Source: Gammaproteobacteria bacterium 42_54_T18 | Lineage (GTDB): Bacteria; Pseudomonadota; Gammaproteobacteria; Pseudomonadales; Ketobacteraceae | DNA: 32,242 nucleotides | NCBI GenBank assembly: GCA_002163245.1 | Contig: MAAL01000060.1 | Location: 1-32,242, forward strand | Direction of reading: 5' to 3' | Shown here: positions 5,706 through 30,155 of the stretch, in pieces | How the letters are laid out: each line of letters opens with the position of its first letter | Numbering within the stretch: the first letter of the stretch is position 1 | Position numbers and translations under genes: made by a program | Notes under the pieces: generated by a model | The model's input: only the letters and a program-made list of their open reading frames with translations | Told to the model about the DNA's origin: nothing | The model's database searches: none

Positions 5706-5764
5706 AATAGGAAAACAAGCGCCAGCTTAGAGAGCACTCTCTTGCCCGCGCTTGTTTTCCTATT
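5706..5764. terminator. 17-bp perfect hairpin between imelysin and di-haem genes (attenuator/terminator)
   Basis: AATAGGAAAACAAGCGC (5706-5722) pairs exactly with 5748-5764, with a 25-nt loop, followed by TTTACAC. It sits 36 bp after the imelysin stop and only 32 bp before the ATG of the di-haem gene. There is little room for a new promoter after it, so it more likely lowers read-through or processes a shared mRNA than separates two units. Confidence 0.65.
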
Positions 5765-5796
5765 TTACACCGAGAATAACCAACATAGACACCATC

Positions 5797-11891: not shown

Positions 11892-11892
11892 T

Positions 11893-12864: not shown

Positions 12865-13786
12865 GGGACAAAACAATCTCGCTTGGCAATACGTCTTCTG
12901 GTACGTTTAATGTCAAACGATGATCTATAACGCTGGGTAATAACTCTTGAATATCTTCTGGTAACACATAACTCCTTTTATGAAAAAGTGCATATGCCTT
13001 TGCTATAGACAGTAAACCAACCAGGGATCGAGAGGATAATCCGTGAGAGAAATACTTGGATTTTCGAGAAAATTCAGCAATATCCAATATGTAGTCATAT
13101 ACTGCTTGCGAGCAGTGCTGTTGCTTAACGATGTTTTGTAATTGAATAAACTCCTCAGTAATAATTACCTGACTTATATCCTTTATTAGCTCTTGACGAT
13201 CTTCACCCATCAAAACACTGCACTCTGATTTACGATCCATATATCCCAAACGAATACAAATAAGAAAACGGTCGAGCTGAGACTCAGGTAATGCATGCGC
13301 ACCCACTTGATCAATAGGGTTTTGCGTTGCCACAACACAAAAAGGCACTGGCAATAGCCGTGTTTCACCTTCAATAGTGACCTGCCTTTCGGCCATTGCC
13401 TCTAACAACGCACTTTGTGTTTTAGGGCTTGCTCGATTTATCTCATCCGCCATTAAAAACTGTGTAAAAATAGGCCCCGCATGAAATGTAAAACTCTCCG
13501 TTTCACGCGAGTACATTGACACACCCAAAATATCACTAGGCAGTAGATCATTCGTAAATTGCACCCGCCGATAAGAGAGCCCTAGCACAGCTGCTAAGCT
13601 TTGTACCAACGTTGTTTTACCTTCACCTGGCAACCCCTCAACTAACAAGTGCCCCCCTGACAAGAGGCATGAAACAGCCCATTGTATTTGCTTTTCTTTA
13701 CCGACAACAACGCTATTTAGCACGTTCAATATATTGTTTAGTTTTACCTGAGCGTCATTCATTGCTGAATCTGAAATATTTCCCAT
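12848..13786 (-). CDS. MoxR-family AAA+ ATPase
   Basis: 312 residues with all MoxR/AAA_3 landmarks: Walker A GLPGEGKTT (51-59), Walker B LMADEINRA (111-119), sensor-1 ATQNP (153-157), and the arginine-finger region ESQLDRF (168-174). The C-terminal lid (AAA_lid_2) has 'SHGLSSRSLVGLLSIAKAYA'. MoxR proteins act as chaperone-like ATPases, commonly with a vWA/DUF58 partner, encoded next. It overlaps the DUF58 gene, indicating coupled translation. It lies 69 bp downstream of the pilus cluster's last gene on the same strand, so it may have its own promoter or be read through from it. Confidence 0.95.
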   Translation of the reverse strand: MGNISDSAMNDAQVKLNNILNVLNSVVVGKEKQIQWAVSCLLSGGHLLVEGLPGEGKTTLVQSLAAVLGLSYRRVQFTNDLLPSDILGVSMYSRETESFTFHAGPIFTQFLMADEINRASPKTQSALLEAMAERQVTIEGETRLLPVPFCVVATQNPIDQVGAHALPESQLDRFLICIRLGYMDRKSECSVLMGEDRQELIKDISQVIITEEFIQLQNIVKQQHCSQAVYDYILDIAEFSRKSKYFSHGLSSRSLVGLLSIAKAYALFHKRSYVLPEDIQELLPSVIDHRLTLNVPEDVLPSEIVLSHVAVS

Positions 13787-13855: not shown

Positions 13856-14329
13856 CTATTCTGTCGAAATCACTGGATTTTTATGGCCATTTAAAAGTGC
13901 CCTTTCCTCCCAATCTTTTGCTTTAACCATAGATTTTTCAGTACCAAAACCATTTCGATAGCTATGAGCCAGCATAAATTGCGCATGGCTATGATTTAAC
14001 TTTGCTGCTTGCTCATACCAATAGAAAGATTTTTCATAATCTTTATCTCGACCTAAACCAAAAAAATGCATCTCAGCCATCAATGTCATTGCTGAGGAAT
14101 TCCCTGTAATAATTGACTTGGCACACCAGCTATAAGCCTTGTTATAATCAACAGAAGCTGCGCCATCATGGCCGTACATATATTTAAAACAATACGAATG
14201 CATAATTTGTTGATGCAGATTTTTTTTAAAAGATCCCCCTACTCCTGATGTACTTTGGCAAGCAACCAACAACGAACAGACAAAAATAGCAAGAATATAT
14301 TTCAATCGTTTCATATTTATCATCGACAT
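13856..14329 (-). CDS. Sel1-repeat lipoprotein; candidate secretin pilotin
   Basis: About 157 residues. A short signal peptide ends in the lipobox LLVAC, so it is an outer- or inner-membrane lipoprotein. The rest contains Sel1-like (TPR-type) helical repeats, with 'GNSSAMTLMAEMHFFGLGRD', 'YEKSFYWYEQAAKLNHSHAQ' and 'MLAHSYRNGFGTEKS' as successive pieces. Several starts are in frame (14341, 14329, 14323, 14314). ATG 14329 has AGG upstream and overlaps the secretin stop. It is the last gene of the filament cluster and directly follows the secretin. Known T4P pilotins (PilF/PilW) are lipoproteins of tandem TPR helices, so a pilotin role is a reasonable inference, not shown by sequence identity. 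Confidence 0.75.
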   Translation of the reverse strand: MSMINMKRLKYILAIFVCSLLVACQSTSGVGGSFKKNLHQQIMHSYCFKYMYGHDGAASVDYNKAYSWCAKSIITGNSSAMTLMAEMHFFGLGRDKDYEKSFYWYEQAAKLNHSHAQFMLAHSYRNGFGTEKSMVKAKDWEERALLNGHKNPVISTE

Positions 14330-15954
14330 AAACCTGCACACTGTAACGACAACTGCTCAACACTTAATTGGCGGTCATCTTGATTAAATTCAACTTTATT
14401 GAACTCTCCGTCTTCTGGATTTTTTAACAAACGAGGCGTAATCAATAAGATCAATTCACTACGCTGTTTATTATCGATGGTAGAACTAAACAAACGACCC
14501 AACAATGGGATTTTCCCAAAGAAAGGCACTTCACTGACTTCATCACTTACGCTTTCACGTATCAACCCACCTACCGCGATCGTGTGGTTATCTTTAACAA
14601 TAATCGTACCTTCGAGCTCTGCAATATTAATAGTATCAATGGCCAGCGTTTGAATCGTGCCCTGGGAAGTTACTAGGCTAATCTGCCCACCTCCTTTCCT
14701 TAAAATCGAATTTTCTTGTTGCACACTTAGGGTTATTATTCCATCTTTCGCATTAATAAACGGCGTTATTTCTATTGAATTACCAATGTCTTTTACGCTG
14801 GTTTCAGGTATCACGCTACCGCCTGTTACCGCAGTATTATTGCCAACTTCAGTTACAACGGCGGTTGCCGTGTAACCCGTAACGATAACCTGTTGTTCAC
14901 CCACAAATAATTTTGACGGCCGATTATTTGATGCCAATATCATCGGAGTTGACAAAACATTAACCCGTTTATTTTTTTGTAACAATTCGATATTAGCCTT
15001 CAAATGATCATTCATATATTCAAATATAAACGTCCCTTCATTAGAAAGACCGTTATTTCCAAAAATAATTGGCTGTAAACTATCGCCTTGAGCAGAAACA
15101 TCATTCACTTCAAAATTAAAAATTGAACTGAATTTGTCATCGATCAATACATCAAGTATTTTCATTTCCAACAAAACCTGAGGTATAGGCCGATCAAGAT
15201 CCTTAATTAAACTGCCTATTTGCTTTAAAGCTTCGCGATCACCTGTTCGTACTAACACCAAGTTATGCTCTGAAACTATCGAAACATAAATAGGTTCTTT
15301 CTGAACAGACAAGATTTGCAGCTGGCGACCAGATATGATATTGCCACTCACTCCACTTGTTGCCAATGAGGATATTTGATCTATACTAAGTTCCTCGTTA
15401 AGGCTGTTTTTATCCCCCCCGCCACTATCACTCTCGCCCCCAGAGGTGGCACCTCCTGATGACCCACCACTATTACCCGGGGTATCAAAACTTGTTCCTG
15501 AATCACTTCTCTTTACCCGTTCACCGTATAAATTTCCAATCGCATCTGCCGCCAAATTGACATTCAAATTATTCATAGTAAATATTTTTGTTACTTCATT
15601 TCGATGAATGATTATATCTTCTGAATATTCTTCCTTGGTCATAATTCTGTAAGTATTACTAACACGATCCCTTCGGTACCACAGATTATTCATTTTGCAT
15701 ATCGTTTCTATTGCGTTTCTAACCGTCACATTCCTCAAAAACAAAGTGACTTTAGTATTTTTTGTTTCGGGTGTCACAACGATATTCATATCAGACATCT
15801 CAGAAATGATACGCACCACATTGATTAAATCAGCTTCTTTAAACTCCAATGTATCCAACATCGGATTAGTAAATTTTGCTTCTGAAACAATCGGACACAA
15901 CAAAGAAACAATGATCAACATCAGCAGACTATTAATCGAAACTATTTTTCTCAT
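14320..15954 (-). CDS. Secretin (outer-membrane channel, PilQ/MshL/GspD superfamily)
   Basis: 544 residues with a signal peptide (cleavage near residue 26). An N0/STN-like domain lies at about 36-108 ('LEFKEADLINVVRIISEMSD', 'VTVRNAIETICKMNNLWYRR'). A second periplasmic N domain at about 119-255 is interrupted by a Gly/Ser/Asp-rich linker (151-183). The C-terminal secretin beta-barrel domain spans about 258-510, with the signature 'VPFFGKIPLLGRLFSS' (476-491) and the closing 'RSELILLITPRLL'. The short N region (no array of N1-N3 repeats) is closer to MshL than to GspD. It begins right after the PilP-like gene, and AGG precedes the ATG. It forms the outer-membrane pore for the filament. Confidence 0.93.
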   Translation of the reverse strand: MRKIVSINSLLMLIIVSLLCPIVSEAKFTNPMLDTLEFKEADLINVVRIISEMSDMNIVVTPETKNTKVTLFLRNVTVRNAIETICKMNNLWYRRDRVSNTYRIMTKEEYSEDIIIHRNEVTKIFTMNNLNVNLAADAIGNLYGERVKRSDSGTSFDTPGNSGGSSGGATSGGESDSGGGDKNSLNEELSIDQISSLATSGVSGNIISGRQLQILSVQKEPIYVSIVSEHNLVLVRTGDREALKQIGSLIKDLDRPIPQVLLEMKILDVLIDDKFSSIFNFEVNDVSAQGDSLQPIIFGNNGLSNEGTFIFEYMNDHLKANIELLQKNKRVNVLSTPMILASNNRPSKLFVGEQQVIVTGYTATAVVTEVGNNTAVTGGSVIPETSVKDIGNSIEITPFINAKDGIITLSVQQENSILRKGGGQISLVTSQGTIQTLAIDTINIAELEGTIIVKDNHTIAVGGLIRESVSDEVSEVPFFGKIPLLGRLFSSTIDNKQRSELILLITPRLLKNPEDGEFNKVEFNQDDRQLSVEQLSLQCAGLCR

Positions 15955-15957
15955 CCT

Positions 15958-16548
15958 TTACCTCACAACAATTAAATCGCCCAAAGATCCGACTTCGACA
16001 ACTATATTTAATCTGTTAATCTTCTTGATCTTTATCACTTGACTTGGATCTGAGAAATTAAAGCCAATTTCATCTTCTAAACGCACCATATAGACCCCAT
16101 GACCTGCAACATCCAACAAAGCCAGCGGGTCAGATTCGGATTGCTTATAAACGACCCCTTTTAACGATAATTTGGGCAATTTAACAGCCAAACCAGGGCT
16201 TTTAAAATCATATCCAGAATAAGCGGAACCCTCGTCATCTGACGAAGCTCCATCATTACCCGTATCGACAATTTTTTTTGTAGCGGAAAATGGATCCCTG
16301 ATACCGTTCAAAAACGCCAGTGAATTCGCATCAGATAATTCTACATCTTTAGTTGTATTTAATGGCCCCGAATTTGACTGCGTATCCTCTTCTACATTAG
16401 GAAATCTTTTCTTTAAAATCTCGTTTCTCTCTTCAATTATATTTAGTAGATTAAACACTTGATCCTTTGCATCATCTATGTCGACAGAATATGCAAAAGA
16501 ACTTTGAAAAAATGAACACAAAAAAAACATCAATAAAAAAATCTTCAT
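15958..16548 (-). CDS. PilP/GspC/MshK-like secretin-linking protein
   Basis: About 196 residues from the ATG at 16548, which yields a clean signal peptide (IFLLMFFLCSFFQSSFA); a GTG at 16563 is the alternative. A predicted helical or coiled segment (about 25-55) and an acidic, Ser-rich linker lead to 'NGIRDPFS'. The C-terminal small beta domain (about 120-196) has 'PKLSLKGVVY', 'ALLDVAGHGVYMVRLEDEIG' and 'INRLNIVVEVGSLGD'. The RDPF motif followed by an HR-like beta domain is the layout of PilP and GspC, which connect the inner-membrane assembly complex to the secretin N0 domain. Identity is low, so the call rests on motif, size and position just before the secretin. Confidence 0.75.
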   Translation of the reverse strand: MKIFLLMFFLCSFFQSSFAYSVDIDDAKDQVFNLLNIIEERNEILKKRFPNVEEDTQSNSGPLNTTKDVELSDANSLAFLNGIRDPFSATKKIVDTGNDGASSDDEGSAYSGYDFKSPGLAVKLPKLSLKGVVYKQSESDPLALLDVAGHGVYMVRLEDEIGFNFSDPSQVIKIKKINRLNIVVEVGSLGDLIVVR

Positions 16549-16549
16549 A

Positions 16550-17770
16550 TTAGCTTGAGGCACCCATCATAGCCTTAAAGAACCCGATATAAACCATCAT
16601 TACCATACCACCTATAATTAAAATAGCCGCCGGCTCTACCAAAGTTGCCATGGTTTTACTCAACGCCTTTAAGTTTTCTTCGTAAAACTTTCCTGCCTCT
16701 AACATAATCGCTACCAGCCCCCCGGTTCTTTCTCCGACAGACGCCAATTGAGATATCAACGGATCGATAAAGGGTGACGTTAAGCTAGATCCCAAATCTC
16801 GACCGATCAATACATTATTCGTTGCTTTATTTATTTCCAAGGCGATGACTGAATTAGGCATTAATTTCTCAACAATTTTTAATGCCTCTACTAACGTCAG
16901 TCCACTTTGCAATAGCATTGATAGCCCCCATCCTATCTGCGACATAGCCCCGACTTTAACCACCTTACCAAAAACCGGTATCATTAAAACAATAAGGTCC
17001 GTTACATATCGTCCAGAAACCGTAGAGCGCACATAACTCAACGACACAAAAAATGCTACAACACCGGCTAAAACAAAGTAACCATAATCAGAAAAAAATT
17101 GAGACAAATCAATTAGTCGTTGCGTTTCCGGGGGAAGCTTCTTACCTGAATTCTCAAAAATCTTCGCGAATTTTGGGATAACTGTTGCCACCAGAAAGTA
17201 CCCCATAAGAAGAGCTATTAACATCGTAATAGCCGGATATAACATCGCTGATGTCATATCCCGTTTCATTTCTGCCTTACGCTCCATATCATCAGCAACA
17301 CGCCCCATAACCACATCTAATTCACCCGTTGCCTCCGCGCTACGAATCATATGCTCAGACATATTAGGAAATATTTCCGCTTCTGAAATTGCATCAGAGA
17401 AAGTACCTCCCCCCTTAATATGGCCGCTCATATCCCGAACAATCAGCCCCATTTTTCCGCCGACAATACTCGTCACCATGTCTAAACTTTCAGTCAACGC
17501 CAAACCCGACTTCAACATTAGTGACATTTGTCTAAAGAAAAATATTTTTTTGCTGTTTGACACCCAACCAATTTCAGCCAAAAATTTGCTTAATTCACTA
17601 GTAACCCCTTTTTCATGAATAACTTCTGAATCATGGGTCACCTCTAACCCGTACAACCCTAACCTCCGCAATTGAGCACGAACATCTTGTTTGTCTTCTG
17701 CCTCAATGGTGCCGTATTGCTCTTTACCTTGCTGATCCAACGCGACATAGTTAAAATTTTGCACTAGCAT
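16550..17770 (-). CDS. Inner-membrane platform protein (PilC/GspF/MshG family)
   Basis: 406 residues, the family's usual length. Two T2SSF domains are visible: about 75-198 with 'FFRQMSLMLKSGLALTESLD' and the SAEATGELD motif (144-152), and about 278-400 with 'GWGLSMLLQSGLTLVEAL' and VGERTGGL (345-352). Membrane segments are near 172-197, 225-246 and 376-398. The N-terminal 'FNYVALDQQGKEQYGTIEAE' is standard for PilC/GspF. It is the rotor-like base that couples the cytoplasmic ATPase to pilin addition. It overlaps the assembly ATPase gene by 7 bp (ATGCTAG), indicating translational coupling. Confidence 0.95.
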   Translation of the reverse strand: MLVQNFNYVALDQQGKEQYGTIEAEDKQDVRAQLRRLGLYGLEVTHDSEVIHEKGVTSELSKFLAEIGWVSNSKKIFFFRQMSLMLKSGLALTESLDMVTSIVGGKMGLIVRDMSGHIKGGGTFSDAISEAEIFPNMSEHMIRSAEATGELDVVMGRVADDMERKAEMKRDMTSAMLYPAITMLIALLMGYFLVATVIPKFAKIFENSGKKLPPETQRLIDLSQFFSDYGYFVLAGVVAFFVSLSYVRSTVSGRYVTDLIVLMIPVFGKVVKVGAMSQIGWGLSMLLQSGLTLVEALKIVEKLMPNSVIALEINKATNNVLIGRDLGSSLTSPFIDPLISQLASVGERTGGLVAIMLEAGKFYEENLKALSKTMATLVEPAAILIIGGMVMMVYIGFFKAMMGASS

Positions 17771-19419
17771 ACTTCCTGTTCAATCACATTGGGCTCATTG
17801 ATACTCTCTTCATAACCAAGAGACAGGCGTTCAAATTCTGCAATGGTGGTATGCCCGCCCAATATTTTCTCGCGGCAATCATCTGCTAGGCTCACAAAAT
17901 CTTTGGCATTACTTCGAATTTCCTGCTCACTCCCTCCCCTGGCTATTATTCTTGCCAGATGCTCATCCATCCACAATGTTTCAAATAACGCGATACGCCC
18001 CTTATAACCACTATTATGGCAATTTGAACAACCATTATTTTGATATACATCCGCCTTTTCAACCGAACTAATACGTAGCAACTTAAGGTCTTTATCCGTT
18101 AACACCTTATCTGTTTTACAAAAAGTACATAATCGCCGTACGAGACGCTGTGCAATCACGCTTACCAGCGTTGTGCCAATCAAAAAAGGCTCCGCTCCAA
18201 TATCAATCAATCGGCTCACCGTCGACACCGCAGAATTAGTATGCAGCGTTGAAAAAACCATATGCCCTGTTAAGGCAGCTTTCATCGCTATTCCGGCCGT
18301 TTCACCATCACGAATTTCACCCACCATAATCACATCAGGGTCATGCCGTAAGAATGATCGCAACGCACTGGAAAACGATACCTTGGCCCCAACTTGAACC
18401 TGCGATATTCCATCCATAACATATTCAACGGGGTCTTCTACGGTTAATACATTAATATCCTTATTGGCAATTTGCTGTAACGCCGAATATAGGGTTGTTG
18501 ATTTACCCGAGCCTGTTGGCCCTGTGATTAAGATCATGCCATGGGGACGCTTAATAGCTTCCGAGAACAGCTCCAATGAGCGTTCTGATAAACCTATCTT
18601 TTTCAGCGACAGAGCCTCACTATCAGACCCTAACAGTCGCAACGTAGCACGCTCGCCAAACTTAATCGGAATGGTCGCAGCACGAATATCGAAGGATATC
18701 TGCTTATCCAACTCAAAGGTCATACCGCCATCTTGCGGCATGCGTTGTTCTGATATATCCATACCCGTCAGTACTTTCATGCGACTTAACAGCGAAGCAC
18801 CTTGTTCTACTGTGAGCATTTTTGCATAAGGTTGCAAGCAACCGTCTATACGAAAACGAATATGGAAACTACCTTTAGACGGTTCAAAATGCACGTCTGA
18901 AGCACTATTTAAGTAAGCTTCTGTCAGTAATTCATTCAGCCCAGCCACAGGGTCAAATTCACTTTCCTCTTCACCTTCATCTTCACTGGCACTTTGCATA
19001 ACACGTTGCACCAGCTGCTCTAGTAATCTCGGATCCGTCATGCAAATTTCTATATCATCAGGCAGCGAACGACGAACTTGCGCAATACCAGCAACATCAT
19101 CTGGATTATCCACCAACAACAACGCAGTCTCGTCAACAGGTAGCAACGGCAACATTAGGCGGCGCTGCACAATAGCAGGGGATATTTTCCTCAATAACAA
19201 AGGATCAATGCGTATTTCATCACTATCAAGAAAGCGAATATCTTGCACCTGAGCATAGGCTCGATAAAGTGAGGTAATCGAAAAGCGTAATTTGTAGCAC
19301 AACAATGTTAACAAATCGCTACGTTCTCGGCGTGCCACTAATTTAAATTCGGCCACCCTGGCTTCATCCAGCATGCCGGTTTGTATACCCGCATTAATTA
19401 ATATGTTGTCACGTATCAT
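17764..19419 (-). CDS. Assembly ATPase (PilB/GspE/MshE family)
   Basis: 551 residues. The N-terminal ~150 residues form a T2SSE_N-like domain ('EFKLVARRERSDLLTLLCYK', 'LYRAYAQVQDIRFLD') that lacks the RLG-type c-di-GMP motif of MshE. The catalytic core has Walker A GPTGSGKST (300-308), Asp box 'VEDPVEYV', Walker B 'PDVIMVGEIRD' (361-371) and His box 'FSTLHTNSAV'. A zinc-binding tetracysteine is present: C431-x2-C434 and C464-x2-C467. These are the marks of the hexameric ATPase that drives filament extension. Its ATG shares a base with the stop of the upstream PilT-like gene (TAATG). Confidence 0.95.
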   Translation of the reverse strand: MIRDNILINAGIQTGMLDEARVAEFKLVARRERSDLLTLLCYKLRFSITSLYRAYAQVQDIRFLDSDEIRIDPLLLRKISPAIVQRRLMLPLLPVDETALLLVDNPDDVAGIAQVRRSLPDDIEICMTDPRLLEQLVQRVMQSASEDEGEEESEFDPVAGLNELLTEAYLNSASDVHFEPSKGSFHIRFRIDGCLQPYAKMLTVEQGASLLSRMKVLTGMDISEQRMPQDGGMTFELDKQISFDIRAATIPIKFGERATLRLLGSDSEALSLKKIGLSERSLELFSEAIKRPHGMILITGPTGSGKSTTLYSALQQIANKDINVLTVEDPVEYVMDGISQVQVGAKVSFSSALRSFLRHDPDVIMVGEIRDGETAGIAMKAALTGHMVFSTLHTNSAVSTVSRLIDIGAEPFLIGTTLVSVIAQRLVRRLCTFCKTDKVLTDKDLKLLRISSVEKADVYQNNGCSNCHNSGYKGRIALFETLWMDEHLARIIARGGSEQEIRSNAKDFVSLADDCREKILGGHTTIAEFERLSLGYEESINEPNVIEQEVC

Positions 19420-20504
19420 TATGAAGAACCTAACAATTGGTTAAGTAACTCATTAAAAACATGGGGTTTACGCGACAATCGCATACCTTGATCCCGAGGA
19501 ATCAACCCCTCTTTAACCCGAACTGCCAAAGCATAATCAAAGGTTTGATTGCCCTGGGCTCGCCCCGTTTCCATGACCGAATAAATTTGCTCTGGCTTAT
19601 GATTACGGATCAAGTTGGATACGGCAGCATTAACCATCAAAATCTCATTAATAGGCACCCGCCCTGATGCATTATCTGGGCGCACCAATGTTTGTGTAAC
19701 AACTGCCCGCAACACCATAGATAATTGCTGGCGAACACCTTCTTGTTGGTTACCAGGAAAGGACCCCACCAAACGATCTATCACACCAACCGCATCATTG
19801 GTATGCAAGGTAGAAAATACCAAGTGACCTGTTTCTGCCGCCATCAAGGCCGCTTCCATCGTTTCTAAATCCCGCATTTCTCCCAGCAAAATAACATCCG
19901 GGTCTTCACGCATAGCCGCACGAATAGCATCTGCAAAACAATGAACATCGGAACCCACCTCGCGCTGATGAACTAATGCTCGTTTATTTAAATGCAAAAA
20001 CTCTACAGGGTCTTCAATAGTCAGAATATGGCAATCTCTGGTTTCATTAATTTCATTAATAACACTGGCCAACGTAGTGGATTTACCGCTACCTGTAGCA
20101 CCAGTAATCAGCACCAAGCCATCATGTAACTTTGCCAGTTTAAACAACTGCTGCGGTAGACGAAGTTCCTCTAAACTATGGAAACTACCATCTAACCAAC
20201 GTATCGAAAAAGCGGGGCATCCTCGTTCAAAATAAACATTAAGACGGTATCGCAAACCGTTTTTATTGCTATAAGCCAAATCTACGCTGCGGTGATCCAT
20301 ATAATGTTTATATTGTTTTTCACTTAACACCGCCTTACAAACACCCTCCAGCATGGCTTTATCTAACACCATTAAATCGTCCTGCTGAGAAATATCTCCA
20401 CTTATCCTAAACGCAGGGTAACAATTGTCCGACAGATGAATATCTGACGCACCATGTTTATCTGCGGCGTTCAATATTTCTTCAAACAAAGATAGCCCAA
20501 TCAT
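19419..20504 (-). CDS. PilT-like retraction ATPase
   Basis: 361 residues, the PilT/PilU size and well below that of PilB. An N-terminal PAS-like domain ('KHGASDIHLSDNCYPAFRIS') precedes Walker A GATGSGKST (135-143), 'IEDPVEFLH', 'AIRAAMREDPDVILLGEMRD' (192-212) and 'ETGHLVFSTLHTNDA'. The C-terminal AVSNLIRN (294-301) corresponds to the AIRNLIRE motif that PilT needs for retraction. No zinc-binding cysteines are present, as expected for PilT. Finding a retraction-type motor inside the same operon as the assembly ATPase suggests a dynamic filament and is unlike T2SS. It is spaced 3 bp from the PilO-like gene. Confidence 0.93.
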   Translation of the reverse strand: MIGLSLFEEILNAADKHGASDIHLSDNCYPAFRISGDISQQDDLMVLDKAMLEGVCKAVLSEKQYKHYMDHRSVDLAYSNKNGLRYRLNVYFERGCPAFSIRWLDGSFHSLEELRLPQQLFKLAKLHDGLVLITGATGSGKSTTLASVINEINETRDCHILTIEDPVEFLHLNKRALVHQREVGSDVHCFADAIRAAMREDPDVILLGEMRDLETMEAALMAAETGHLVFSTLHTNDAVGVIDRLVGSFPGNQQEGVRQQLSMVLRAVVTQTLVRPDNASGRVPINEILMVNAAVSNLIRNHKPEQIYSVMETGRAQGNQTFDYALAVRVKEGLIPRDQGMRLSRKPHVFNELLNQLLGSS

Positions 20505-20507
20505 ACT

Positions 20508-21134
20508 TCAAAAACTCATAATCAATTTAATATTAAGACCGTCGCCTTCGGCCCTTGGTGCCACCGATACCTTTGTTACTACCACCCTATTTTCTAAGGT
20601 TTCTAGGCGTTCAATAAATACCAGTAAATCATGGTATTTCCCGTACAACATGATATCAAATGCAGGTCGCTCTAAGAATTTCATAAGCTGCGGTTGGCGA
20701 CCATCTGTAAAACCAGAAAGATCCTGATCGGCTTGCGTTACACTCGCCATGCGTAGTTCGTGTGACTTGGCTAAGAACGTTAACTGAGAACGCATTTTTG
20801 CAATGGCTTTTTTGCTGTTAAGGTCAATAAATCCACTCTCAATACCCGCCACAGCCTCTTCTTCTATTATTGTTTGTTCTATTAATCCTGCTAATTCCTT
20901 GTTTAGCCGCTTTATGTCCTTATTGCCCGCTCTCTTAATTTTTGTTTTTCGTACATCTTGGCGGCTTTCCTCAAGCACTTCTTTCCATACTGCCCGTTGT
21001 GTTGTTTGAACTTTCACTCTCAGCATAAGATACCCACCAACAACACACGAAATAAGCAGAATCCCCACCAATACTTTTTCTCGTAGTGCCATTGGTTTTT
21101 TTTCTGTTTTTTTACCATTGGACTTATCAAACAT
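20508..21134 (-). CDS. PilO/GspM/MshJ-like inner-membrane alignment protein
   Basis: About 208 residues from ATG 21134, 2 bp after the stop of the PilM/N-like gene; the upstream TTG at 21140 would overlap. A short basic cytoplasmic tail leads to one membrane helix ('VLVGILLISCVVGGYLML'). A predicted coiled coil (about 45-95) and a small alpha/beta domain follow, ending in 'LVFIERLETLENRVVVTKVS' and 'GLNIKLIMSF'. This is the topology of PilO/GspM, ferredoxin-like dimers that bind the PilN/GspL periplasmic part. Sequence similarity is low; the call rests on topology and gene order. Confidence 0.8.
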   Translation of the reverse strand: MFDKSNGKKTEKKPMALREKVLVGILLISCVVGGYLMLRVKVQTTQRAVWKEVLEESRQDVRKTKIKRAGNKDIKRLNKELAGLIEQTIIEEEAVAGIESGFIDLNSKKAIAKMRSQLTFLAKSHELRMASVTQADQDLSGFTDGRQPQLMKFLERPAFDIMLYGKYHDLLVFIERLETLENRVVVTKVSVAPRAEGDGLNIKLIMSF

Positions 21135-21136
21135 GA

Positions 21137-22939
21137 TCAAATAGATTCCAAAATCATTGTGAACTTATATCCATCAATACCAGAAAATCCTTTTTCCTCT
21201 TGGCTCGAATTATCGACAATCTGCATATCCCAGACATCTAATTCATCCGTTAGTTTTTGATTAAATTCATCAATCGACAACTGATCAACAGACCATCCAG
21301 AGACACTGAACTGGTACCACGATGTTTCCTCTATTCTATGGATCATAATTAAATCGTTAATACTTCTAGAGAAAAGTGGCAACAAATCTACCAAAAACTG
21401 CTGCCTACGTAACAAAATAGTATTAAGACCTGACTGGCGCTTAGACAACATGCTTAACTTTTCTTGCAGCTTCTTTTTTTCCAACATTAACCGATTATAT
21501 TCAGCATTATCACTATTAATTTTTGAATTGATCGAGTCAATTTTTTCAACCGCTAAACCATTTTCTTGAACTTCACTCTCTGTGCTTACTCTTTCGTAAA
21601 TATAATAAGATTCATTACCAGAAATACCCAAAATGACCACCACAACTACTGCAGCCACCTGTAATTTTGGCTGTTTATACCAGGGCGGTGGCGGTGGCGT
21701 ACCATGCAAGCTACTTAACTGCTGACTTGAGAATTTGTAAAAATGATGCCGCGCTGCCCCCATAATTGCAGCATCACCAGAAAATGGATCATTAACCAAG
21801 TTGTTTACATCGAGAACCCCATCAAGATTCAGAAAATGGCAGGACAAACTGTCACTAAGTTCCTGCACAAAGTCATTGATCCTAGGATGGTAACCGCTGT
21901 AATACACCTTTTCTAAACTTTCACCGTCCAGCGGTTCATCCGAAATATAATCACTCACAAGCTGGACTATATCGGATGCCTCTAATGCATAATCACTGCA
22001 CCGATGTTGTTTTGACGCTACAACATGATTGTTTTTTACCTGAATCAATGTCACCAAACTGATATTGATCACTAACAATAGTTGTTCGTGCTTATTTACT
22101 GGGAGCTGGGTAACCGCACTGTGATGCTGAGAATAAATCGCTTCTAAAAATATTTTATGCTCACCAAAAACCGTCAACCATTCATTGCGAACCTGTGCAT
22201 TAATAGCAGAACACAGCCATAGGCCACCTTGATCTTCCGACGCAATCGATTCATCACTCCAACTACAATCTATTGTCGGATCTGCCAACTGGTTTTTTTC
22301 ATGTACCGACAAACATTCATCAAGCTGCTCTTTGGTAATAAATCCGGCACGTATCGCCAGCTCACCAAAACGTGCAGGTGACCGTCCTCCTCTTCCAGCC
22401 ATTCGTTCTTTTTGTTCACCTAATTCTTCTAATAATCGCTTTCTCTCCGGCTCCTTTAAATAGCCACAAGCAATCAATAAACCTCCAATAGTCCAATGCC
22501 CTACACTTTCGGTAAACAGTGGCTCAAGCTCCCAACGCACAAGTTCTTGCATTTGTTTATCCGAGAGCTTTCGATCACCTTCTATTGGCAAGGGTAACAA
22601 TGCAGAAGTCACCGCACCGGAAACCAGCAACGCTTTAGAGGGAACAGAAAAGTCGTCACGCTTAAGTTGCACAACAATATCGGCCAATGCCTCTGAACTT
22701 TCCATTATATTATTTTCTGCGTAACCGATTAATTCAACCTCATCACCACGGCGCTCAACCACATACGCTTTAATGCCAAAACCACGACTCTCAATAATCA
22801 GCAAGCTATTGGCTTTTTGTGCCATGCGCTGAAATATATTTTTAGCCATATCTTTAGCATTACGGCCCGTCGTATTCACCGCTAATTTCTGCTGAGACTT
22901 TTTAATGTACGTCGTTAGTTTTTCTGGGAATTGGCTCAT
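21137..22939 (-). CDS. PilM-PilN / GspL-like fusion with an MshEN-like insert
   Basis: 600 residues. The N-terminal ~400 residues resemble the actin-like PilM/GspL cytoplasmic domain ('LLIIESRGFGIKAYVV', 'LLPLPIEGDRKLS', 'QELVRWELEPLF', and late 'DAAIMGAARHHF'). An insert at about 147-230 has two repeats of the RLGxx-type. The first, TIGGLLIACG (150-159), is degenerate. The second, RFGELAIRAG (190-199), continues with ITKEQLDECL and is close to the MshEN c-di-GMP motif. A proline-rich hinge (PPPPPW, 415-420) precedes a single membrane helix (about 427-441). A coiled coil (about 462-505) and a PilN/GspL-like periplasmic domain follow. The membrane complex thus joins PilM and PilN functions in one chain, as in GspL and MshI. 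Confidence 0.82.
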   Translation of the reverse strand: MSQFPEKLTTYIKKSQQKLAVNTTGRNAKDMAKNIFQRMAQKANSLLIIESRGFGIKAYVVERRGDEVELIGYAENNIMESSEALADIVVQLKRDDFSVPSKALLVSGAVTSALLPLPIEGDRKLSDKQMQELVRWELEPLFTESVGHWTIGGLLIACGYLKEPERKRLLEELGEQKERMAGRGGRSPARFGELAIRAGFITKEQLDECLSVHEKNQLADPTIDCSWSDESIASEDQGGLWLCSAINAQVRNEWLTVFGEHKIFLEAIYSQHHSAVTQLPVNKHEQLLLVINISLVTLIQVKNNHVVASKQHRCSDYALEASDIVQLVSDYISDEPLDGESLEKVYYSGYHPRINDFVQELSDSLSCHFLNLDGVLDVNNLVNDPFSGDAAIMGAARHHFYKFSSQQLSSLHGTPPPPPWYKQPKLQVAAVVVVVILGISGNESYYIYERVSTESEVQENGLAVEKIDSINSKINSDNAEYNRLMLEKKKLQEKLSMLSKRQSGLNTILLRRQQFLVDLLPLFSRSINDLIMIHRIEETSWYQFSVSGWSVDQLSIDEFNQKLTDELDVWDMQIVDNSSQEEKGFSGIDGYKFTMILESI

Positions 22940-22946
22940 GATTTAA

Positions 22947-24280
<1,334 letters not shown>

Positions 24281-24281
<1 letters not shown>

Positions 24282-24874
24282 TAAGGTGTACGCTTAATAT
24301 CAGTTGATGCATCGCTGACTGTCAATGTTTCAGAAATAGTTGCCCACCATTGTTGCCACATGCTGGGTGCTGTTTTTTTCTGCCAACTGTACACTAACAA
24401 ACCGGGTCCAAATTTTGAGTTATACACATGGTAGGCCTCAAAGATCACTTCATCATTCAGGCTTAGGTGTTTTTCCATTCCCTCGGCCAGCTCATCAATA
24501 ATATACACCGGCAGTGTTCTGCCAGTGGCTGACGCCACCGTTATACCTTTGGTCGCAACGATAGATGATTCAGAAGCAAAATTTTCAATGGCACGTTTCA
24601 AATAGCTGTGCTTACGGGAATAAGGCATTTCGTTTAATGTCGCAGTAAAACCCACAGGCCGAAACAACACTAACTCAACTGTACCTTCCATTGATGCTTT
24701 AAATTCATCAATCATAATATCAACATCATAAATGTTGATATTTTTTTGCTCCAGCGTGACAGTAGAATTGTTATCATCTACGGCCTTCGTTGCCACCTCA
24801 TCATTATCGGCCACCACAATCTTGGCCCACAAACTCATCGTACATAATAGTAAAATAATTAACGTATTCTTCAT
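24281..24874 (-). CDS. Secreted protein of unknown function in the pilin gene block
   Basis: About 197 residues from ATG 24874; the longer open frame runs into the preceding prepilin gene. GAAGAG lies upstream and the N-terminus is a Sec signal peptide (MKNTLIILLLCTMSLWAKIVVA). The mature protein has no family I recognise. Visible features are 'NINIYDVDIMIDEFKASMEG', a positively charged 'EMPYSRKHSYLKRAIENF', and a Trp-rich C-terminal stretch 'APSMWQQWWATISETL'. No prepilin signature and no lipobox are present. It lies between the GspG-like and the EP-rich prepilin genes, 22 bp and -1 bp from them, so it is co-expressed and probably a periplasmic accessory or assembly factor. Confidence 0.7.
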
Positions 24875-24896
24875 GTTATTACTCTTCACTCTCGAA

Positions 24897-25652
24897 TCAA
24901 TACAAACATAAGACAATGTCATCGCCACCCGCCGCAGCGGGACAAGACAGCCCTGAACTTTCATAAATACCGTTGGGGCCTAAGCTAACAACCCTTGCTT
25001 CCCTTGCTCCTTCACTATCCAAATCAAACAAAAAATACGGCCGCCCCCGACGGGAAATCGGATCATCGGCATCACTTTGTCCAAGTAGACGCCAATCAAA
25101 TAAACAGGCGTCATTGGCAACAGGACTATCATCACAAATAGCCGCCATATTTGCTTTTCCATCGTCATCATTAACGTCCACAGGAAAAGCAACAAAAGGA
25201 TCTGGTATAGCTCGCTGTCTATTATGCGCAGCCGCCACTACTGCATGTGGGGAACCAGTACCATTAAGACCAATACCATCACCAATATCCACCAAACCAC
25301 TATCTCCACTATGCAAATAGGGCCCACGCCAGCCCCGTTGATAATCTGCATCCCAGGCAACAACAGGCGTACCTGGTTGCTCAAATAGGAATACTGCATC
25401 CACCGCGGAGGATTGCGCTGGAAACACAAAGTTATCTTGTCTATAACGCAACAATGCAGCGCGAATATTTAGCATTTCACTATCCGCAGCGATTAATTTA
25501 CTGTCGCTTATACGGCTACCTGATGCCGTATAAGCGACCCCCGCTAACGCCGCCATAATTCCCACGACAACGAGTAACTCCAGCAAAGTGAAACCTGACA
25601 CACGCTGGTAAGCCACCGCATCACGACGTTTGGATATTTGTTTAATATTCAT
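24897..25652 (-). CDS. GspG-like prepilin
   Basis: 251 residues. A 20-residue leader ends in SG|FTLLELLVVVGIMAALAGVAY, with Glu5 of the mature protein, the full N-methylation signature. 'DSEMLNIRAALLRYRQDNFVFP' and 'GWRGPYL' resemble the GspG major-pseudopilin core, where 'W.GPYL' is conserved. Asp-rich 'PVDVNDDDGK' and the C-terminal 'SLGPNGIYESSG' (compare SxGpDG in GspG) suggest a calcium site. It is longer than GspG (about 140 residues) and is the only prepilin here with clear GspG-type motifs. Third of four prepilin genes. Confidence 0.88.
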   Translation of the reverse strand: MNIKQISKRRDAVAYQRVSGFTLLELLVVVGIMAALAGVAYTASGSRISDSKLIAADSEMLNIRAALLRYRQDNFVFPAQSSAVDAVFLFEQPGTPVVAWDADYQRGWRGPYLHSGDSGLVDIGDGIGLNGTGSPHAVVAAAHNRQRAIPDPFVAFPVDVNDDDGKANMAAICDDSPVANDACLFDWRLLGQSDADDPISRRGRPYFLFDLDSEGAREARVVSLGPNGIYESSGLSCPAAAGGDDIVLCLY

Positions 25653-25679
25653 TGCGAACCATGTAGTTATTTTTTGTTA

Positions 25680-26759
25680 TTAACCTGACTTCTGGCCGTT
25701 AAATTCAGATATTTCCTCTGCCAAAAAACCGCCCGAGGCATCAATAATTGCTTGTAGATACGTGTTAGGGGCTGCCGCACTCACCAAGGGTCCCGTCCCG
25801 CTCACCAACTCTGTATACGTGCCACTATTAAACAAAGCGATATAATGCGCATACTTATCTTTTGCCGCCCCAGTATAAAAAGGAGCTTTACCAAACACAC
25901 CGTCGACCCCCACCACATCAGACTCAGCACCAATACCAAACGCTAACAAGCGGTCATGTGCTCCGGCTCCGAGCTTAATATTGTTGTAACCGTTGTCGGT
26001 ATAAGAAGAACCACCTGCTGTCACATCACTGCCCTTGTACCACATCAATACGGGCGCACCGGCAGCAACAACACCCGAAAAACCAACACCACGAAACTTA
26101 TACCCCCCCGCGCCGTCAGGCTCAGGATCTGCAAATGCTTCATTAGGTATGTCAATCGCGTCCAAACCCTGGCTATTGTCACCGAAAAAACCACTGCTAC
26201 CGTTTACCGCCAAACTAAGTACAACACTGGATGCAAAATTATCACACGCCTCGCTCATAGCGTAACGTAACGTTAAAAAACCGCGGCGCTGAAACTCCTC
26301 TGCCTCCGCGGCCGTGAGCGCTGTGCCCACAAACTTTTCTGACAGTGCCCGGCTCATACCACCACCGACACCCGAGACATTTGAAATGCCGCCAAATTTA
26401 TATGCCGTGCTCGGTAATGCCGTCACGGTACCTGCCGTCGTATTTAAAAGTGCATCTTCAGTTTCCGGATCAACCAATGCGGCAGATTGCCAGCTATTGC
26501 CCGATACTGCGCCCGTAGCGCTATAATTTGTGCACACTAACGATTCTAAATTATTCGGCAAGCGTTGTGTTAACTGCATAAACACACGCATTGAATTTTC
26601 AATTCCACTAAGCGTTTGCGCAGCCACTCCACGCGCTGCTTTGGATTCAGTACCTGACCATGACGCTACCATTGAGCCACCAATTACGGCAATAATCCCC
26701 ACCACCACAAGCAATTCAAGTAACGTAAAACCCTTGTGTTGTTGATACTGACTAACCAC
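25680..26759 (-). CDS. Large prepilin, paralogue of the first prepilin
   Basis: About 359 residues from a GTG at 26759, with TGAGA about 7 nt upstream; a TTG at 26771 is in frame. The leader ends in KG|FTLLELLVVVGIIAVIGGSMV with Glu5. The rest closely parallels the neighbouring upstream prepilin across its whole length. Examples are 'YKFGGISNVSGVGGGM', 'EKFVGTALT', 'LTLRYAMSEACDN', 'DIPNEAFADPEPD', 'APVLMWYKGSDVT', 'NGYNNIKLGAGAHDRLLAFG' and 'FGKAPFY'. At about 350 residues these are much larger than standard major pilins. Duplicate genes allow a mixed or alternative filament. It lies downstream of a hairpin terminator, so it is likely less expressed than its paralogue. Confidence 0.88.
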   Translation of the reverse strand: MVSQYQQHKGFTLLELLVVVGIIAVIGGSMVASWSGTESKAARGVAAQTLSGIENSMRVFMQLTQRLPNNLESLVCTNYSATGAVSGNSWQSAALVDPETEDALLNTTAGTVTALPSTAYKFGGISNVSGVGGGMSRALSEKFVGTALTAAEAEEFQRRGFLTLRYAMSEACDNFASSVVLSLAVNGSSGFFGDNSQGLDAIDIPNEAFADPEPDGAGGYKFRGVGFSGVVAAGAPVLMWYKGSDVTAGGSSYTDNGYNNIKLGAGAHDRLLAFGIGAESDVVGVDGVFGKAPFYTGAAKDKYAHYIALFNSGTYTELVSGTGPLVSAAAPNTYLQAIIDASGGFLAEEISEFNGQKSG

Positions 26760-26872
26760 GTTAATTCTCAATAAAATGAAGGCTGAATAAATGATCTTGA
26801 CACCAATGGATTCACGACCCAGCCGATTTGATTCTTATAAAATCCGCCAATACACAACGGTCAGATCATTCG

Positions 26873-26918
26873 TTTAAAAATAAAACACCGGCTGAAGATT
26901 AATTCCAACAGCCGGTGT
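26873..26918 (-). terminator. Rho-independent terminator after the first prepilin gene
   Basis: ACACCGGCTG (26885-26894) pairs exactly with 26909-26918. Reading along the minus strand, the stem is followed by TTTTATTTTT. It lies between two paralogous prepilin genes and would give excess first-prepilin mRNA with limited read-through to the rest of the cluster. Confidence 0.85.
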
Positions 26919-26951
26919 GTGACACGTCCCTGCGTCAATCAAGTATACTGA

Positions 26952-28037
26952 TTAGGTTTTTTGACCAGCGAATTCAGCAAACTCCTCGTCTAGGAAATCT
27001 CCACGAGCATCAATTACCGCTTGGATATTGACACTTGAGCTAGCAGGGATAACCCATGATGTACCATCGTGAGTGTACGTTCCGGTATTGAACAAGCCAA
27101 TATAATGCGCGAACTTATCCTTTCCTACTTGACCGTAGAACGGCGCTTTACCAAAGACCGCATTAGGACCAACCAGATCAGAATCGCCACCAATACCAAA
27201 GGCTAGGATACGATCGTGTGCACCGGCACCAATCTTAACATTGTTGTAACCATTAGCAGTCACCGCACCTGCAGCATCTGTCACATCACTACCTTTGTAC
27301 CACATTAGTACTGGTGCATCTTCAGCAACATTTCCTTCAAAGCCAACACCACGGAACTCAAATGATGTAGCATCGTCTGGTCGTGGATCAGAGAAGGCCT
27401 GATTTGGAATATCGATATCCGCCAAGGTGTTAGTCGTATCACCAAAAGGACCTGTTGTACCATTAACATCGGTCAGAGCAGCGGTAGTAGCAGCATCATC
27501 ATCACACGCTTCTGCAATTGCATAACGTAAAGTTAACAGGCCGCGATCAGTAAACTCAATCTCTTCCTCTTCAGTTAAAGTAGTACCAACAAATTTCTCA
27601 GCCAGCTTTTTAGTCATACCACCGCCAACACCTGATACATTCGAGATACCACCAAACTTATATGCAGTGGCAGCCGCTGCTGTAGCACCCACTGCTGCTT
27701 CTGTAGACGTCGCAAGTATTGCAACTGCAGCTTCCGGATCCGTCTCAGCTGCTCCATCCCACACTGCAGTTGTAACATCACCGGCAGCACTGTAAGGCGC
27801 ACAAACCATTGTTTCCAAATTGTTAGGCAAACGATCCGTAGTATTAACGAAAATACGAATTGAATTTTCAATGCCCGCGATAGATTGCGTCGCCACACCA
27901 CGAGCCGCTTTATCTTCATTGCCAGAGAATGAAGAAATCATGGCGCCACCGATTATCGCGATAATACCGACAACCACCAATAGTTCGAGCAAGGTAAAAC
28001 CGCCCTGCTTCTTGTTTATTTTTTGCATATTATTCAT
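26952..28037 (-). CDS. Large prepilin; likely major filament subunit
   Basis: About 361 residues from ATG 28037; the longer open frame (to 28124) has no leader-like sequence. The leader MNNMQKINKKQGG is basic, then FTLLELLVVVGIIAIIGGAMI with Glu5 of the mature chain. The body is rich in Ala, Gly, Thr and Asp, has few Cys, and is clearly paralogous to the next prepilin. Being first of the four, with a strong terminator right after it, suggests high expression as the major pilin. An Ala-rich low-complexity stretch (about residues 115-135) is absent from the paralogue. The family of its globular domain is not recognised. Confidence 0.88.
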   Translation of the reverse strand: MNNMQKINKKQGGFTLLELLVVVGIIAIIGGAMISSFSGNEDKAARGVATQSIAGIENSIRIFVNTTDRLPNNLETMVCAPYSAAGDVTTAVWDGAAETDPEAAVAILATSTEAAVGATAAAATAYKFGGISNVSGVGGGMTKKLAEKFVGTTLTEEEEIEFTDRGLLTLRYAIAEACDDDAATTAALTDVNGTTGPFGDTTNTLADIDIPNQAFSDPRPDDATSFEFRGVGFEGNVAEDAPVLMWYKGSDVTDAAGAVTANGYNNVKIGAGAHDRILAFGIGGDSDLVGPNAVFGKAPFYGQVGKDKFAHYIGLFNTGTYTHDGTSWVIPASSSVNIQAVIDARGDFLDEEFAEFAGQKT

Positions 28038-28231
28038 AGTTAAATCCACAGTTGATATCCAAAATGACTCGCCGCTCCCGCACCGGTTATTGCCATTGCT
28101 TTTGCTGCTGCCCAAACAGCGCAAAGGGCGTATTAAACATGCAAACCCACATTGCCATGTATTTTTAATTTCTTATTTCTTAATTCTTCCTTCTACGTAT
28201 CTATATCACCGCCTTGCAGCAACACAAACAC

Positions 28232-28456
28232 CTAGGCATCCATATCGGTGGTGCGACGCTTCAATGCAAAGGATGCGTCCGCGGTTTTTACCCGTCTATC
28301 CACCACATATCGATATTGTTTACCACAATCAATAATCACTTCTTTCTGATGCTTTTTTAAGATTTTCATCGATACCGTAAAATTACCAAAACCATCATGT
28401 TTAAAAATCTCGTCGTAAACAGCCATCAGTTTTTCTTTCACGTCATCGTGCTGCAT
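28232..28456 (-). CDS. Small conserved-looking protein of unknown function
   Basis: About 74 residues from ATG 28456, with AGGTGAG 9 nt upstream; a TTG at 28477 would add 7 residues. It is predicted to be soluble and mixed alpha/beta, with 'VKEKLMAVYDEIFKHDGFGN' followed by 'ILKKHQKEVIIDCGKQYRYVV' and a basic tail. No family was recognised. It lies between a 124-residue unknown gene (31 bp away) and the first prepilin gene, in the same direction, so it is part of the cluster's 5' end. It could be a regulator or assembly factor. Confidence 0.6.
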   Translation of the reverse strand: MQHDDVKEKLMAVYDEIFKHDGFGNFTVSMKILKKHQKEVIIDCGKQYRYVVDRRVKTADASFALKRRTTDMDA

Positions 28457-28487
28457 ATTTTTCAACTCACCTTTCAAGAATTTATAT

Positions 28488-28862
28488 TTACACTGATTTA
28501 AGTTTGTTACGGCCTAACATTTCAACTAGCACCACAAAACGGGACGGTATTGGGATCAACATACTTGATCGATCTTTAAAATAACCTTGCAGAGCAGCTT
28601 TATTACCACCTTGCACAACAACTTTGCGCCAATGAAGTCGCGCCTGACCATCACCCACCATCTCAATTTTGTAACCACAAAGCATCAATTCTGTGCTCAA
28701 CTCACCATCATCCAACGTCAACGACACATCACTACTATCTCGGTCAATATCTACATTCGTCACTCTTCCCCACTGAGAAGGCAGCGCCTTATTGAGCACC
28801 CACAACACCACGGCATTAACACTAAAATAACGTCTAAAAAATTGGCGCATCCTATGAAACAT
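28488..28862 (-). CDS. Small protein of unknown function at the head of the filament cluster
   Basis: 124 residues. The N-terminus is basic and amphipathic (MRQFFRRYFSVNAVVLWVLNKA), perhaps a membrane-associating helix. The rest looks like a small beta-rich domain ('VTNVDIDRDSSDVSLTLDDG', 'YKIEMVGDGQARLHWRKVVV'). The ATG at 28862 has AAGGGGG 8-9 nt upstream. Its promoter region contains a Fur-type palindrome. No family was recognised. Its position, first in the run of co-directional genes, makes it a candidate dedicated component or regulator of the filament system. Confidence 0.65.
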   Translation of the reverse strand: MFHRMRQFFRRYFSVNAVVLWVLNKALPSQWGRVTNVDIDRDSSDVSLTLDDGELSTELMLCGYKIEMVGDGQARLHWRKVVVQGGNKAALQGYFKDRSSMLIPIPSRFVVLVEMLGRNKLKSV

Positions 28863-28892: not shown

Positions 28893-28921
28893 ACTTTACA
28901 TCAACAAAACTCTTAATACAA
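28893..28921 (-). promoter_or_regulatory. Candidate promoter of the filament cluster
   Basis: On the minus strand, TTGTAT (28921-28916) and TAAAGT (28898-28893) are separated by 17 bp, 31 bp before the start codon of the 124-residue gene. Matches to the -35 and -10 consensus are 3/6 and 4/6, so it is weak. The Fur-type site overlaps the -35. Confidence 0.35.
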
Positions 28922-28947
28922 ATGATTATCATTAGTATTAAGAGTTT
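28907..28947. promoter_or_regulatory. 41-bp near-perfect palindrome with a central Fur-type box
   Basis: The 13-bp arms AAACTCTTAATAC (28907-28919) and their reverse complement (28935-28947) enclose AATGATTATCATT (28921-28933), itself a perfect 6-1-6 palindrome. Only one base pair (28920/28934) is mismatched. Read on the minus strand, the site at 28918-28936 matches 14 of 19 positions of the Fur consensus, with an unbroken run TAATGATAATCATT. It lies about 56-74 bp upstream of the first small gene of the filament cluster. Confidence 0.75.
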
Positions 28948-30066: not shown

Positions 30067-30155
30067 CACATGCTCACGCTGCAAACTTTTTCCCAACTGC
30101 CGCAATTGATGACGTAACTTTCCAATATGGACGTTTTTTGTTGATAACTTTATGT

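Follow-up and report, generated by a model that had tools for sequence, protein, structure and literature searches.

What kind of type IV filament machine is encoded by a ~15-kb, operon-like block on a single contig of Gammaproteobacteria bacterium 42_54_T18? The window analysed here, 32,242 nucleotides long, is one whole contig (MAAL01000060.1, or C139) from a draft genome of 6.66 Mb and 199 contigs, and the filament block spans positions 13856-28862, with all genes on the minus strand and mostly overlapping or less than 30 bp apart. We conclude from gene content and phylogeny that the block is very probably a distinct type IV filament subtype, apart from type IVa pili (T4aP), mannose-sensitive haemagglutinin (MSHA) pili and type II secretion systems (T2SS). 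As to what the subtype does, the best reading, on which our confidence is evenly balanced, links it to iron or heme.

A preliminary description of this DNA had listed four prepilins, a PilM-PilN fusion, a secretin, a lipoprotein and proteins like PilO, PilT, PilB, PilC and PilP. Open reading frames (ORFs) together with hidden Markov models confirm this inventory and show Sel1 repeats in the lipoprotein. Its picture of overlaps or tiny gaps between genes holds for most of the block, and fails for the 180 bp between the two large prepilin genes (plA1 and plA2) and the 363 bp ahead of plA1; the latter holds a small conserved gene that had been overlooked, s81, and a structured leader. Family counts below refer to a set of 22 related loci, several of them cut by contig ends. 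Beginning with the first gene of the operon, the components are:

28488..28862, minus strand: x124, a protein of 124 amino acids (aa) with no assigned function and no Pfam match; homologues only in L017 and L051 among the 22 loci.
28232..28477, minus strand: s81, small conserved protein; likely start ATG 28456; core ...HDG(F/Y)...QKEVIIHCGKQYRYVVD.
26952..28037, minus strand: plA1, large prepilin 1, 361 aa; N_methyl PF07963; C-terminus LDEEFAEFAGQKT resembles that of near relatives in alignments.
25680..26771, minus strand: plA2, large prepilin 2, 363 aa, 60% identical to plA1; N_methyl.
24897..25652, minus strand: plG, GspG-like prepilin; N_methyl; GspG model at 39.5 bits, under its cut-off.
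24281..24964, minus strand: unk227, unknown protein of 227 aa with a signal-peptide-like inner start.
22947..24281, minus strand: plH, third prepilin type; N_methyl barely above cut-off; Glu-Pro repeat in the window copy; family in 22/22 loci.
21137..22939, minus strand: PilM-PilN fusion (PilM-N); tandem MshEN-like domain near residues 150-215.
20508..21140, minus strand: PilO-like inner-membrane protein, from position and a family found in 20/22 loci; no Pfam match.
19419..20504, minus strand: PilT/PilU-family retraction ATPase; TIGR01420 at 415 bits, cut-off 319.
17764..19419, minus strand: PilB/GspE-family assembly ATPase; PF00437 at 403 bits plus MshEN PF05157; own clade.
16550..17770, minus strand: PilC/GspF platform protein; PF00482 at 158 bits; own clade.
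15958..16563, minus strand: PilP/GspC-like periplasmic protein, from position and a family found in 19/22 loci; no Pfam match.
14320..15954, minus strand: secretin; PF00263 at 119 bits; own clade.
13856..14341, minus strand: Sel1-repeat lipoprotein, a possible pilotin; PF08238; related genes in 5 other loci.

All four prepilin signals exceed the N_methyl cut-off. The most likely start of plA1 is ATG 28037 rather than TTG 28124, and its product is likely the major pilin. PilM-N, despite lacking a Pfam match, has family members in 22/22 loci, and the unk227 family occurs in 10/22, namely nine loci with PilT and L068, whose contig stops before the PilT place. Because the same gene order recurs across the 22 loci, the block is more than a product of chance. 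The typical order runs s81, plA, plG, (unknown), plH, M-N, O, (T), B, C, P, secretin; the plA, plG and plH families are matched wherever a locus has a complete pilin end, and the secretin has moved to the operon front in L061 and L062. The assembly ATPase, platform protein and prepilin that make up the generic type IV filament model, as set out in part of Denise et al. 2019 (PMC6668835), are all present in the one cluster. PilT is the sole filament protein of the window above a named system-level cut-off: the assembly ATPase scores under the PilB and GspE equivalog cut-offs, the platform protein under that of GspF, and the secretin under those of GspD, PilQ and MshL.

Phylogeny places these core proteins in a lineage of their own. 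In quick trees, with Shimodaira-Hasegawa-like approximate likelihood-ratio (SH-aLRT) values as the only support, the filament sequences form one side of a branch for the assembly ATPase (19 rows, support 95), the platform protein (19 rows, 97) and the secretin (17 rows, 100). ATPase support reaches 100 once a long type IVb (T4b) outgroup row is removed; adding 20 ATPases from six host genomes gives a clade of 23 rows, again at 100, with 16 of the newcomers outside it; of the four inside, three repeat existing rows and one is labelled Planctomycetota. The named groups form branches of their own (ATPase, all 100 without the T4b row; platform, 98-100; T2SS and MSHA secretins, 92-99), with separation in the secretin tree, which lacked T4aP rows, being from MSHA and T2SS. 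Reference sequences were drawn from the host genome and others of its class, with labels based on gene context and likeness to this genome's own systems. The ATPase trees were built without a truncated T4aP row and L064, the platform tree likewise without L064, and the reduced ATPase trees (T4b-free and enlarged) also omit some 'other' rows.

Membership in MSHA or T2SS is rejected on the ATPase, platform and secretin trees, and membership in T4aP on the ATPase and platform trees. The distinct subtype put forward in the preliminary description thus stands, with ATPase and platform clades apart from T4aP, MSHA and T2SS and a secretin clade apart from MSHA and T2SS; the outcome that would have refuted it, with every core component nested in MSHA or T2SS and a gene order shared with described systems, appeared neither in the trees nor in the gene-order comparison. 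The accompanying remark that the block mixes features of all three is loosely right, but the trees place the filament as a separate lineage. Any of the three may be its closest kin, because a sister relation of the filament clade to MSHA or to T4aP is not rejected by approximately unbiased (AU) tests (p 0.39 and 0.49, respectively), while the best ATPase tree joins the clade with T2SS at support 72. The same values are what could be said for the block as a divergent member of MSHA, T2SS or T4aP, a reading to which we give hardly any weight, since each named group branches without the filament clade at high support and both gene order and pilin set differ. The types distinguished in the parts of PMC6668835 used here are T4aP, type IVb pili (T4bP), MSH, T2SS, ComM, Tad and archaeal, with 884 systems left generic, and the filament may be among those 884. 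Literature searches, which covered result listings and the papers cited here, found no description of the operon or of s81. The block adds a lineage to a superfamily in which many systems stay 'generic'.

Set beside known systems, the filament resembles MSHA (of Vibrio and of the host genome's own locus, L019) in its single large locus without a prepilin peptidase, its MshEN-type domain, and its PilM/N/O-like proteins, secretin, ATPase and platform; unlike MSHA, its E, G and L proteins fall in separate clades, PilM and PilN are fused, a PilT of its own is present, and the MshEN-like domain is located in PilM. With T4aP it shares PilB, PilC, PilT, PilM-P, a secretin and prepilins with the same signal, but all its genes lie in one operon, two of its pilins are ~360 aa long, and its ATPase and platform clades are separate. 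The likeness to T2SS consists of a GspG-like prepilin and GspE/F/D relatives, whereas PilT and the separate clades of those GspE, GspF and GspD relatives set the filament apart.

As read from the sequence, the domain inside PilM, of MshEN-like (cyclic di-GMP, or c-di-GMP, receptor) type, is a new feature. Two MshEN-type repeats are inserted between PilM segments, and the insert aligns over both repeats with the N-domain of MshE at an hhalign probability of 95 (E 2e-8) and with mixed N-domains of orphan and other ATPases at 94%; the corresponding values are 1.2% for T4aP PilB and 0.2% for T2SS GspE N-domains, and 0.9% and 0.4% for PilB and PilC of its own system. Both copies of the (R/K/L)LGxx... 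motif are recognisable, with arginine in 20/22 rows of copy 2 and 2/22 of copy 1, where S, T or N mostly takes its place. Such copies jointly bind c-di-GMP in MshEN, which still binds tightly with lysine or leucine in place of the arginine (consensus and binding from part of PMC11731258). The PilN half of the fusion matches Myxococcus PilN (3jc8) at E 6e-4 in a PDB profile search, which also gave a chance-level row for the c-di-GMP domain of Thermus PilF (E 0.79). In L068 and L074, PilM and PilN are each encoded by a gene of their own. Their fusion elsewhere is less odd than it looks, because GspL of T2SS has a similar layout; PilM and PilN likewise form one protein in the Gram-positive system of Clostridioides difficile, as described in part of PMC6916266.

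The preliminary description had also expected the prepilin peptidase to be supplied from elsewhere in the genome. One PF06750-type peptidase is present, at C64:45970-46323 beside pilB and pilC, and the expectation is therefore right (no search for Tad-type peptidases was made). The same genome also holds T4aP (pilA/B/C/D, with pilT/U elsewhere), T2SS, MSHA, T4b-like and Tad loci and an orphan GspE-like ATPase, six kinds named by reading ORFs, with genome totals of 11 PF00437 matches and 6 secretins. These other loci (L019-L026) lie on C64, C117, C144, C36, C75, C66, C55 and C29, and the orphan ATPase groups with orphans of other genomes in a separate clade of the ATPase tree.

Relatives of PilM-N occur in 3/145 genomes of the order, and a three-row PilM-N profile matches 17/369 genomes of the class, five strongly and 12 only weakly, the latter not followed. 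A scan of genome contigs gave 20 loci (L055 and L070 duplicate loci already in the set, and L052/L053 are near-copies), with titles including Moritella, Chromatiaceae and Ectothiorhodospiraceae metagenome-assembled genomes (MAGs), Methylophaga, Methylotenera, Methylomonas, Emcibacter, Nitrospinaceae and Planctomycetota; the operon is mostly gammaproteobacterial and patchy. This patchiness, together with the rows labelled Planctomycetota and Nitrospinaceae within the clade, argues that the operon probably spread by horizontal transfer, with the reservation that MAG taxon labels may be wrong for single contigs; the Planctomycetota-labelled ATPase has a PilT-like match adjoining it on the same contig. 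A plasmid search with PilM-N gave no match. PilT itself is present in 11 and absent from 9 of the 20 loci reaching its place, and is also absent in L126; of those nine, the eight included in the ATPase tree form one branch there at support 100.

The case for iron or heme begins with s81, a protein of ~70 residues with nine or ten invariant positions in its core, which we propose to be an iron/heme-linked regulator. It is encoded in 18/21 filament loci that retain that end and in 0/45 reference loci. Across the class it occurs in 8/369 genomes, namely the five with strong PilM-N matches and G213, G342 and G391, and in a phylum sample in 3/398, the window's own, G815 (filament) and G833. In G391, G833 and G213 the gene adjoins TonB receptors, accompanied in G391 and G833 by HmuS and an ABC transporter. 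Two order-level searches (6/250 and 34/201 genomes) yielded 53 matches, of which 51 lie in 50 further regions and the remaining two, in G391 and G833, were examined separately. The 50 regions comprise 21 filament loci and 29 loci with a TonB receptor and one secreted family, and no other kind; heme-uptake genes are found in 24 of the 29, and the TonB receptor of L123 is a heme/hemoglobin receptor above cut-off. Among the 21, plA identified 20 and the secretin one (L238, whose contig ends before plA), and three (L195, L203, L237) are on contigs already present as L061, L062 and L066. Some genomes carry both kinds of locus. Because the typed s81 regions are of these two kinds, one small protein goes with both the filament and heme uptake.

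Two simpler rules for s81 failed: it is not in every filament locus (18/21), and it does not mark this filament alone, occurring also beside TonB/heme loci. HemP, HmuP and ChuP are likewise small and encoded beside a TonB heme receptor and heme-uptake genes, with leader action proposed (part of PMC9131926). Unlike HemP, s81 has no match to Pfam hemP at E values up to 1 and lacks the GKLILTK-like tail of three HemP rows; a PDB profile search with s81 gave one chance-level row only. The secreted family of the heme loci (L123, L124, L127, L164-L202), beside s81 and TonB receptors, bears a WGGW(T/D)RG-type motif, with PEP-CTERM tails in L127 and L164 (those checked) and a Kelch domain in L123; on the short contig of G342 the secreted protein is all that is visible with s81. 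Comparison of plA with this protein found no relation (hhalign 0.4%). A second, diverged s81-like core lies at L128 14251-15036 in G389 (42 bits), near genes that read as FecR- and TonB-receptor-like.

A possible site of s81 action lies in the leader of the pilin gene:

28137..28160, minus strand: stem-loop in the plA1 leader, 114 nt ahead of the ATG; heptaloop TGTGGGT.

Two hairpins stand between s81 and plA in many loci, and RNAalifold on 12 leaders gives 11 pairs, five of them changed on both sides, in an alignment that shifts hairpin 1 in some rows. The heptaloop of hairpin 1 is [AT]NNGGG[AT], in the window GCAA-TGTGGGT-TTGC. With a stem of at least 4 pairs, this hairpin occurs 26 times in 25/57 leaders, where the background in 3.07 Mb of these loci predicts 0.83, and a strict TGTGG[AG][AT] loop in 7 leaders (four filament and three heme loci, the latter kin) against 0.11 expected, counts that near-copies raise. 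Either loop pattern is found in 20/31 filament leaders and 6/26 heme-locus leaders, and 15 of the 20 filament-leader hairpins sit 80-129 nt before the start codon. The 57 leaders were drawn from 61 (two duplicates were dropped, as were a leader shorter than 25 nt and another in which no start was found), with near-copies such as L123/L194 kept and the window's leader reset to ATG 28037. Rfam, run on the window and four loci, gave no family at the leader. HmuP and ChuP act post-transcriptionally, with leader elements proposed for them (part of PMC9131926), and by this analogy s81 may act on the plA leader hairpin.

Putative Fur control supplies a further connection, both ahead of the operon and elsewhere in the window:

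28918..28936, minus strand: Fur-box-like site ACTAATGATAATCATTTGT, 74 bp ahead of x124, the first gene; agrees with the assumed consensus GATAATGATAATCATTATC at 14/19 positions, shuffle p 0.03.
4384-5670: imelysin gene, PF09375; Fur-box-like cluster ahead of it.
5752-7311: di-heme oxidoreductase (DHOR) gene, PF06537, after the imelysin gene.

In the 400 bp before the first gene, Fur-like sites exceed those of shuffles in ten PilT-branch loci (Fisher p 5.4e-6; six of the ten below 0.05), a group that counts L068 although its contig ends before the PilT place, and in all 18 scanned filament loci together (Fisher p 3.2e-4); a narrower earlier scan shows the same trend as the scan starting at the first gene. 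The window's only other non-coding Fur-like sites with at least 14 matches, at 4284-4350, lie just before the imelysin/DHOR pair. The secretin gene is followed by imelysin in L065, and by DHOR and then imelysin in G389, on the same strand. Only the absence of other matches is informative here, since the proteins retrieved by the imelysin and DHOR profiles are those from which the profiles were made.

Several observations weigh against an iron or heme role. The s81 gene is missing from three of the 21 filament loci (L057, L059, L069), and the protein matches no Pfam or NCBIfam family and resembles HemP weakly (hhalign 29%, three HemP rows). The Fur consensus is an assumed one; the closest relative, L051, has no such site (p 0.99), the eight loci of the PilT-less branch show no significant one (Fisher 0.77), and 40 later loci give Fisher values of 0.75-0.94, with strong sites in the kin heme loci L184 and L187. 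Both the PilT-branch grouping and the stem-loop patterns were chosen after a first look at the data. Imelysin lies near only 3/24 distinct filament loci, whose flanks were not all Pfam-scanned, and in Pfam scans the operon encodes no receptor, hemophore or known heme-binding domain.

Taken as predicted products, the genes themselves specify four parts that share one lineage (assembly ATPase, platform protein, secretin and the PilM-N/O/P alignment complex), along with prepilins of three types and a conserved small control protein; the window's branch adds a retraction ATPase. In such a machine, the genome's PilD would process the prepilins, PilB and PilC would build a thin filament of ~360-aa pilins through the secretin, plG and plH would contribute minor or tip subunits, and PilT would retract the filament, while c-di-GMP sensed by the MshEN-like domain in PilM would gate assembly. 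When iron is low, loss of Fur-Fe would derepress the operon and s81 would act in HemP/HmuP-like fashion on the stem-loop leader of the pilin gene; this context is suggestive of a surface filament produced under iron shortage. The filament's role could then be to acquire iron or heme, for instance by catching hemoproteins or iron particles and pulling them to the surface. That its business is iron or heme, beyond mere timing by them, we hold to be credible but slightly less than evenly balanced. More tentative is the full scheme, in which an iron/heme-acquisition filament is switched on through Fur and an HmuP-like s81 acting at heptaloop hairpins (in leaders of the pilin and of the secreted protein of heme loci), with c-di-GMP gating through PilM, not PilB. 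Of the functions suggested in the preliminary description, nutrient uptake has the best circumstantial support, as iron or heme, and adhesion and secretion are kept as rivals. A type IV pilin, PilA2 of Legionella pneumophila, has a role in iron acquisition that does not require piliation (part of PMC13170364), a likeness by description only.

An adhesion, twitching or biofilm pilus, with expression that is merely iron-responsive, like that of many surface structures, and no part in iron uptake, is the less likely account, though PilT and the c-di-GMP-type domain would suit it, as would an O-antigen-ligase-like gene near nine loci, possibly for glycosylated pilins; against it, s81 was found only with this filament or in TonB/heme loci, a tighter tie than general iron regulation would give. 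Somewhat less probable again is a T2SS-like machine whose short periplasmic endopilus expels an iron-scavenging protein, with s81 and Fur setting the timing. Such a machine fits the iron-linked control, the GspG-like plG, the GspL-like layout of PilM-N and the absence of PilT from 9/20 loci, yet PilT is present in the window's own branch, the operon has no obvious substrate gene, and the window's four prepilins and PilM-N match none of the T2SSI/J/K/L Pfam models, all four of which are matched by the host's own T2SS proteins. The NCBIfam GspH model touches the prepilin N-termini weakly (at most 25 bits, cut-off 80). Probes for GspH-M, MshC/D/O and MshI, searched with phmmer, found nothing in 21 filament loci, being weak probes that match 1-6 of 45 reference loci, of which about ten are T2SS, and only 1-3 for MshC, D and O, which came from the host genome. 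The iron/heme-linked filament, our preferred reading, amounts to the proposal of a retractable filament wired to iron/heme control, for which s81 and PilM-N with its MshEN insert would serve as markers; if s81 does bind the hairpin, it would be an RNA-binding regulator common to heme uptake and a filament.

Genes flanking the operon vary. A constant neighbour was sought among the loci and none was found: MoxR/DUF58 recur only in L054, downstream of the filament operon as here, and imelysin only in the window, L065 and G389. Directly downstream of the window's filament block lie genes whose membership in the operon is doubtful:

9813..13786, minus strand: MoxR, DUF58 and TgpA-like transglutaminase genes.

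On the other side of the operon, upstream, the same strand carries cytidylate-kinase-like and APH-family kinase genes (29374-31166). O-antigen-ligase-type membrane genes, possibly encoding pilin glycosyltransferases, stand near L057, L058, L059, L061, L062, L065, L066, L072 and L073, four of the nine with a Pfam check (L057, L061, L065, L072). A LuxR-type response regulator and/or a LapD_MoxY_N sensor kinase is encoded near the operon in several PilT-less loci (such flanks occur in L057, L058, L062, L063, L066, L067, L073 and L126), and in L058, L063, L067 and L126 a gene with a Pom (Protochlamydia outer membrane protein) domain lies directly 3′ of the secretin gene.

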